Below the pieces are notes generated by a model. It saw only the letters and a list, made by a program, of their open reading frames with translations, was not told the DNA's origin and did no database searches. Below, one piece after another: positions 41,897-43,968 of a stretch of 64,000 bases of DNA. Position 1 is the stretch's first letter, and every line of letters starts with the position of its first letter. The stretch is from Anaeromyxobacter dehalogenans 2CP-C (GTDB lineage Bacteria > Myxococcota > Myxococcia > Myxococcales > Anaeromyxobacteraceae): NCBI RefSeq assembly GCF_000013385.1, contig NC_007760.1:3880001-3944000 (forward strand), given 5' to 3'. Both the position numbers and the translations under genes were made by a program.

Positions 41897-42061
41897 CCCG
41901 CCCCAGCCCGGCGCCGCCCTGCGGCGCGGCGCGTCCGCCGACCCGGCAGATGCCCGCGAGACCATGGACGGTTGCATGCCGCCGCGGCGGCGCGGGCGCA
42001 CGGATCCGGGATCCGCCGTCCGGCCGGAACCCTTCCGCCCGGTCCCGGCTCCCACCCCTCC

Positions 42062-42388
42062 ATGAGTGCCTCCACCGAGACGACTCCCACGATCGAGGTG
42101 ACCGACGCGGCGCGAACCGCGCTGCTCGAGCACCTCTCCCGCGACCCGCACAGCCGCTACGTCCGCATCCACGTCGGCCACGGTTGAGGTGGCGTCAGCT
42201 ACCAACTGACTCTGGACGAGTCGGCCGACCCCGAGCGCGACGCGCTCATCGAGCAGGACGGGATCACGTTCCTCGCGGAGCACCGGCAGAAGCACCTCAT
42301 CCCGGGCCTCCGCATCGAGGTGCAGAAGGTGTTCGGGCGCGAGGGCCTGGTCGCCTGGAACACGGCCTGGGAGGGCGGCGCCTGCTGA
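42062..42388 (+). CDS. HesB/IscA-like protein with in-frame TGA, probable selenoprotein
   Basis: Reading through the TGA at 42185-42187 gives a continuous 108-residue protein with selenocysteine at position 42. Upstream TDAARTALLEHL and RYVRIHVGHG, then U, then GGVSYQLTLDE match the HesB/IscA fold, and U replaces the conserved first Cys of the GGCSG-type motif. Homology on both sides of the TGA argues against a truncated gene. Seven base pairs of stem with a 5-nt loop (42206-42224) start 19 nt after the TGA. Of the two other Fe-S cysteines, only a C-terminal Cys107-108 region (GGAC) remains, so iron-sulfur assembly is uncertain. HesB-like selenoproteins are known from related bacteria. Confidence 0.85.
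42206..42224 (+). promoter_or_regulatory. Candidate bacterial SECIS hairpin
   Basis: CTGACTC pairs with GAGTCGG (seven pairs, one wobble) around the loop TGGAC. The loop begins 25 nt after the TGA and has G at its second position, both in line with the bacterial SECIS consensus. Confidence 0.65.
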
Positions 42389-42483: not shown

Positions 42484-42873
42484 ATGCAACCGAAGCCTCG
42501 GGAAGGTCCGCGCTGGGCGCGCGGGCAGAAGTTCACGCTGTCGCCCGCCGGGCGCGACGCCGAGGAGGCGTACCGCGCCGCGGTGCTGGGCGCGCGTGGC
42601 GCCGGGCGCGCGGTGCTGGACGGCGCGCTGGCCGGCTGGGCCTCCCCGCGCGCGGTGGAGCCGGGCGACGGCGTGCTGCTCGCCGAGCTGAAGGGCAAGC
42701 CGCGCGGCCTCTCCGAGCTGGGCCACGCCCTCGACGACGCCGGCATCCCGGGCGCCGAGGTCCGGGCCGCGCTCGACCGGCTGGTCCGCGCGGGCCTCGC
42801 CGAGCTGGTCCCGCTCGCCTCGCAGCTCGAGGCGCAGCGCGCGCCGCCGCCGCCGGCCACCGGCCGCTGGTAG
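42484..42873 (+). CDS. Small basic hypothetical protein with a winged-helix-like C-terminus
   Basis: 129 residues, unrecognised. The C-terminal half (LAELKGKPRGLSELGHALDD, then VRAALDRLVRAGLAELVPL) has the spacing of a winged helix, so DNA binding is possible. The N-terminus is basic and Gly/Arg-rich. It is preceded by a consensus-like promoter and has no SD, so it may be read from a leaderless message. It converges on the ArfB-like gene. Confidence 0.6.
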   Translation: MQPKPREGPRWARGQKFTLSPAGRDAEEAYRAAVLGARGAGRAVLDGALAGWASPRAVEPGDGVLLAELKGKPRGLSELGHALDDAGIPGAEVRAALDRLVRAGLAELVPLASQLEAQRAPPPPATGRW

Positions 42874-42888: not shown

Positions 42889-43256
42889 TCACTCCCACCC
42901 GCGCCGCGAGGCCTTCCGCTCGCCGCGGCGCTTCTTCTCGGTGAGGCGCCGCTCCTTCGCGCCGCGCGTCGGCTTGGTGGGCCGGCGCGGCTTGGGGCGG
43001 TGCGCGAGCGGCTGGAGGCGCGCGCGCAGCCGCTCCAGCGCGGCGCCGCGGTTCTGCAGCTGGCTGCGCCGCTCGGTGGCGGTCACCGTGATCTCGGTGG
43101 GCCGGTGCACCAGCCGCACGCCGCTCTCGGTCTTGTTGCGGTGCTGGCCGCCGGGCCCGCCGCCCACGAAGAAGCTCTCGTCGCACTCGGCGAGCAGCGC
43201 CTCGTCGGACAGGGCGAGCGCCCGGCGGGCCTCGGCCCGCAGCGCCTCGGGGACCG

Positions 43257-43260
<4 letters not shown>
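42889..43260 (-). CDS. arfB: Release-factor-like peptidyl-tRNA hydrolase (ArfB/YaeJ-like)
   Basis: 123 residues with the catalytic GGQ loop in [21 protein letters not shown] and a Lys/Arg-rich C-terminal tail that in ArfB enters the mRNA channel of stalled ribosomes. It lacks the codon-recognition domains of RF1/RF2, so ribosome rescue or a related hydrolase role is expected. Its ATG at 43260 overlaps the ABC ATPase stop by 4 nt, an unusual coupling to a transport operon. PrfH-like proteins are an alternative. Confidence 0.82.

Positions 43261-43968
<708 letters not shown>

Follow-up and report, generated by a model that had tools for sequence, protein, structure and literature searches.

The Predicted Selenoprotein Gene and Its Features

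The window analysed here, a 64,000-nucleotide stretch of the complete 5,013,479-base chromosome of the soil bacterium Anaeromyxobacter dehalogenans 2CP-C, contains a reading frame for a small HesB/IscA-like protein that starts at ATG 42062 and passes through an in-frame TGA. Features at the locus, in positions of the window, are the following.

42062–42388, plus strand: HesB/IscA-like selenoprotein gene; 108 residues, with the predicted selenocysteine (Sec) at residue 42; stop codon TGA at 42386–42388
42185–42187, plus strand: in-frame UGA, predicted to be read as Sec; residue 42, in the motif G-U-G-G-V-S; TGA kept in 12/12 clade members
42206–42224, plus strand: predicted bacterial SECIS hairpin; 42206–42212 pairs with 42218–42224, loop UGGAC at 42213–42217
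42209, plus strand: A, the 5' side of a covarying pair whose partner is U 42221; the A is the first base of the Thr50 codon ACT and the U the first base of the Ser54 codon TCG
42383–42385, plus strand: C-terminal Cys108, the protein's only Cys; a Cys lies at or next to the end in 11/11 clade members with a complete 3' end
42484–42870, plus strand: downstream gene, conserved, for a 129-aa protein predicted to be largely helical; a possible partner

The original prediction held that the HesB fold continues across the TGA at 42185, and this observation is confirmed: the Pfam model Fe-S_biosyn (PF01521) covers residues 11–92, straight across residue 42, with 35.3 bits against a cut-off of 26.3. 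The fold is IscA-like, and in alignment the Sec42 column is that of the first conserved cluster-ligand Cys of IscA-type proteins, which agrees with the further claim that the TGA replaces this residue. A single C-terminal Cys had also been noted, and both the translated frame and the alignment of its orthologues leave only Sec42 and Cys108.

Just 5' of the start codon, at 42026–42052, lies the arrangement GGAACC-N15-GGCTCC, which recurs with minor variation upstream of several orthologues in the genus and resembles a promoter of the extracytoplasmic-sigma type that would leave a very short leader. Searched for across the genome as a regulon motif, it matched at 15 places and its reversed control at 7; the genes concerned formed no coherent set, and that use of it was dropped.

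Selenocysteine Machinery

Absence of selC and selB from the genome would argue against recoding of the TGA. Both are present: the gene for tRNA-Sec, with anticodon tca (UCA), is at 2130853, and the matched GTPase part of selB, above cut-off, is at 496438–497577 in an open reading frame that extends into the usual C-terminal region (this region was judged by eye). The search also returned selA at 482171–483586 (514.7 bits) and selD (L207) at 3870998–3871924 on the minus strand (380 bits). The selD gene, about 8 kb to the left of the window start, has an in-frame TGA of its own (motif GAGUACK). Taken together, the general features of a selenoprotein gene are found here, namely an in-frame UGA, a conserved downstream frame, a bSECIS placed within the 16–37 nt rule, and selA, selB, selC, and selD in the genome.

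Conservation Across the TGA

Orthologues were found in 12 of the 79 genomes searched (the window's own and relatives), all of them Myxococcota and each with exactly one TGA, in the same column; protein identity of these clade members to the window's protein ranges from 43% to 98%. A close relative (G003) is without the gene. The protein encoded at L012, a locus from a genome of the same genus, is identical to that of the Anaeromyxobacter soli locus L088. A search with the alignment across 195 Myxococcota genomes recovered the same 12 orthologues, and its other matches were Cys-containing proteins of the IscA/ErpA type (motif GGGCSG, C-terminal CGCG or CSCG) together with five weak TGA-bearing matches, three of which were examined over their whole length and are HesB-like selenoproteins of the UGGP type. 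Among the 195 genomes no orthologue belonging to the window's clade had Cys at position 42; the TGA is found there throughout the clade.

If homologues normally ended at this TGA, the recoded reading would be in doubt. No truncated orthologue of this kind was seen; all continue in frame to the C-terminal Cys, bar one that is cut by a contig end. GC3 after the TGA is 0.95, with a range of 0.83–0.97. For close pairs, synonymous divergence is greater than non-synonymous divergence both before and after the TGA. The excess is no longer clear in the pairs furthest apart, and all of these are rough estimates from a short gene.

A SECIS Hairpin Shared With the HesB-Like Family

The hairpin CUGACUC-UGGAC-GAGUCGG begins 18 nt beyond the TGA, with a stem of 7 bp, a folding energy of -8.3 kcal/mol, and a G at loop position 2; the spacing from UGA to loop is 25 nt. 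The published bSECIS model gives a loop of 3–9 nt, an upper stem of 4–16 bp, a G at loop position 1 or 2, a UGA-to-loop distance of 16–37 nt, and an energy of -7.5 kcal/mol or lower (PMC13188914), and the window's hairpin lies within all of these limits. The predicted 7-bp stem with its G-containing 5-nt loop thus holds in geometry and energy, and it recurs at the homologous site across the family. Folding of the RNA around 42185–42230 gave a more mixed picture: the 46-nt region folds better than shuffled sequence (z -2.25; 5 of 200 shuffles as good), and, judged on energy only, the hairpin is the minimum-free-energy (MFE) structure in only five of the eight clade members tested. Folding energies alone are no proof of the hairpin in all members, and the decisive evidence is comparative. 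In position, stem, loop size, loop G, and energy the element resembles the bacterial SECIS elements read by SelB; it differs from them in that an Rfam search of the window gave no match at the gathering threshold, and in that its sequence is, as far as searched, specific to HesB-like genes.

We searched for the element with a DNA pattern in which TGA and CTGNCTCTGGANGAG were fixed at a set distance and the fourth stem pair was left free. It matched at least 120 stretches, mostly from Bacillota and the former Deltaproteobacteria, nearly all of which encode UGGP-type HesB-like proteins. When the 12 clade members are added to the pattern matches, a hairpin is found at the same site in at least 132 HesB-like loci, and this sequence comparison identifies the window's hairpin as homologous to the bSECIS of HesB-like selenoproteins, a known family. 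The inner stem pairs are invariant in the clade members, whose retrieval relied on protein sequence, and are uninformative in the pattern-found loci because the pattern fixed them. The third base of codon +8 after Sec is T in 12/12 clade members, though their GC3 is mostly above 0.9.

The pair left free is A-U in the window, U-A in the sister species, and G-C or G-U in the wider family; among the matches listed and the clade it is GC in 55, AU in 24, GU in 22, UA in 9, UG in 1, and unpaired in 21. It is paired in 106 of 126 distinct sequences, vs. 81.8 expected and no more than 94 in 5000 shuffles of the 3' letters, and its covariation score over 40 distinct rows is 0.192; shuffles give 0.085, none of the 500 reaching the observed score, and slid controls lie far below it. 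Changes were also placed by parsimony on a quick tree of 132 proteins, from which the two coupled residues had been left out. Both sides of the pair changed on the same branch six times, vs. 11 and 6 solitary changes, over 262 branches (Fisher p ~2e-5, a guide only, since the tree is poorly resolved, the method is parsimony, and two of the six double changes give no standard pair). One of the six is a change from U-A to A-U in the window's own lineage. For an independent-pairs test of coupled change on a 42-row tree, the sample was too small for significance.

Through this base pair residues 50 and 54 are linked, and they are Thr/Ser in the window, Ser/Thr in the sister species, and Ala/Pro in most of the family. 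One clade member (L016) has Ala/Thr with a G.A mismatch and an energy of -3.2 kcal/mol, which falls short of the energy limit for a bSECIS; it seems to be either an exception or an intermediate.

A standard gene caller would place the end of the gene at 42187, as would be expected if the TGA were a normal stop, or a mutation that disrupts the frame, and the sequence beyond it a decayed pseudogene. Conservation of the TGA in 12 genomes, coding constraint and high GC3 past it, and homologous Sec genes in at least 120 further loci all run counter to this reading, which we reject as wholly improbable. A subtler alternative accepts that the gene is recoded and attributes the conservation of 42206–42224 to the protein (LTLDES) and not to an RNA hairpin. 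The third-position T at codon +8 in GC-rich genomes is difficult to reconcile with this, as are coupled changes of a single base pair by which two amino acids are replaced together; so even though family members share the conserved peptide L-x-L-[DE]-E and the hairpin is not the MFE structure in some of them, protein constraint alone is no sufficient explanation, and we consider it very unlikely. Insertion of selenocysteine guided by the hairpin at 42206–42224 is, on the comparative evidence, very probable. SelB would bind this hairpin and bring Sec-tRNA(Sec) to the UGA at 42185, to yield the 108-residue protein.

Place Within the HesB-Like Selenoproteins

Among bacterial selenoprotein families the HesB-like one ranks sixth in frequency (PMC5029168), and the original prediction was right that this kind of selenoprotein had been predicted before. 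In a 58-protein tree the 12 orthologues are monophyletic (99/96) and are joined with the UGGP HesB-like selenoproteins, apart from the Cys-containing A-type carriers (99/95–96). The best NCBIfam match is IscA_HesB_Se (NF038090) at 40.1 bits, under its cut-off of 85, and TIGR01911 (HesB_rel_seleno) gives 19.4 bits, under its cut-off of 66.35; several UGGP members likewise score under the curated cut-offs, which are therefore stricter than the HesB-like family. The family motif is given as UxGP in a 2026 review (PMC13188914). The window reads U-G-G-V-S, and the clade motif is UGG[VIWMY]S in 11 of 12 members; the P is found only in L020, the deepest clade member, whose UGGP ties the clade to the HesB-like family.

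Compared with that family (TIGR01911/NF038090), the fold, the Sec column, the start of the UGGx motif, and the approximate size are the same, as is a bSECIS hairpin at the homologous place with a UGGAN loop. The window's clade differs in standing as a separate clade with UGG[VIWMY]S in place of UGGP in all but one member, in its scores below the model cut-offs, and in a hairpin pair that is A-U or U-A, not the commonest G-C. Since it lies outside both the present motif and the model cut-offs, automatic annotation probably truncates these genes.

A 2006 survey credited A. dehalogenans with 11 selenoproteins (three FdhA, SelD, three Prx, proline reductase, two Trx, and one DsbA-like protein), and there is no HesB-like entry in that list (PMC1794560). 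No later paper naming the window's selenoprotein was found in the literature covered, which is incomplete. The gene is of a known kind and its mechanism is known, in a divergent clade that has apparently been overlooked. What is new is this clade, which the published selenoproteome does not contain, together with the amino-acid pair linked through RNA and the lead from sulfur genes described below.

Gene Neighborhoods

The 129-aa gene lies beside the selenoprotein gene in eight of 11 homologous loci (Anaeromyxobacter and relatives), in two of them at about 48% identity; its product gave no Pfam match and no PDB-fold match. A divergent DUF488 gene also flanks the selenoprotein gene in the window's clade. 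On the minus strand at 42889–43275 the window encodes a small ArfB/YaeJ-like protein that has an RF-1 domain and a GGQ motif; its position near a recoded gene is probably coincidence.

Among more distant relatives, some 15 to 20 loci from Bacillaceae, which represent two HesB-like types, have at least one gene of the following kinds within 4 kb. These neighbors encode rhodanese, TusA-rhodanese or TusA, DsrE-like, metallo-beta-lactamase, TauE, and CsoR/CstR-family proteins, which we take to be parts of sulfane-sulfur (CstR) operons. HesB-like Sec loci in such clusters are L075, L118, L157, L165, L117, L124, L133, L138, and L187. This context was not found around the window's clade itself. The Bacillaceae clusters make sulfur or redox chemistry the best functional lead, and by analogy with these distant relatives in one Firmicutes family they point to a possible sulfur or persulfide chemistry for the HesB-like family.

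Some Bacillaceae (L152, L101, L119, and others) encode a second HesB-like protein about 1.5–2.5 kb from the Sec gene. This protein has no Cys or Sec and is YneR-like, with a GGSS motif.

Fold and Proposed Function

An AlphaFold2 model built from the 12-row alignment, with Cys modelled in place of Sec, has a pLDDT of 84.7, and its best PDB matches are IscA (1r94, E 3e-7) and SufA (2d2a); Cys108 falls in a disordered tail with pLDDT below 50. The protein shares with IscA, SufA, and ErpA the fold and the position of the first ligand. It differs in having Sec for the first Cys ligand and no C-terminal CxC, in its identity of about 22%, and in belonging to a different clade, and the three Cys of A-type carriers (C...CxC) are here represented by Sec42 and Cys108 only. 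Many Bacillaceae relatives keep Sec and have no C-terminal Cys, so Sec looks essential to the family and the tail Cys accessory, though it is always kept in the window's clade.

With Sec42 at the first-ligand place of IscA and Cys108 in a flexible tail as the only notable chalcogen residues, the two would most likely act as a redox or sulfur-handling pair, which could form a selenenyl-sulfide or transiently carry sulfane sulfur or a metal. Unlike standard A-type scaffolds with three cysteines, such a protein would not hold an Fe-S cluster. The suggestion in the original prediction of a redox enzyme rather than a scaffold is one that we also infer, and to a redox or sulfur role taken alone we would give about an even chance.

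The IscA fold, Sec at the first ligand position, and the C-terminal Cys of all clade members with complete ends would also suit a true Fe-S or iron carrier, a selenium variant of the A-type carriers whose cluster or iron is bound by Sec42 and Cys108 from two subunits. We regard this as unlikely given the reduction of the IscA-type CxC pair to one Cys, the many Bacillaceae relatives with Sec but no C-terminal Cys, and the sulfane-sulfur genes within 4 kb of some distant relatives. In the one system studied, the archaeon Methanococcus maripaludis, the HesB-like selenoprotein was found through 75Se labelling, and a disruption mutant still fixes nitrogen, with no defect in this process (PMC11097638).

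Tentatively, we propose that HesB-like selenoproteins, including the window's clade, handle sulfane sulfur or selenium and are not Fe-S scaffolds, with Sec taking the persulfide and the terminal Cys, where present, resolving it, and that the SECIS hairpin dictates which pairs (Thr/Ser, Ser/Thr, or Ala/Pro) occur at residues 50 and 54. As a joint proposal this has somewhat less than an even chance of holding in both parts. If it is true, linked changes at these two residues of the protein are driven by RNA structure. The hairpin offers a clean natural case of RNA pairing that links two amino-acid positions. The Bacillaceae neighborhoods provide a testable lead on the role of the HesB-like family, and the gene itself would extend by one the eleven selenoproteins listed for this bacterium in 2006.
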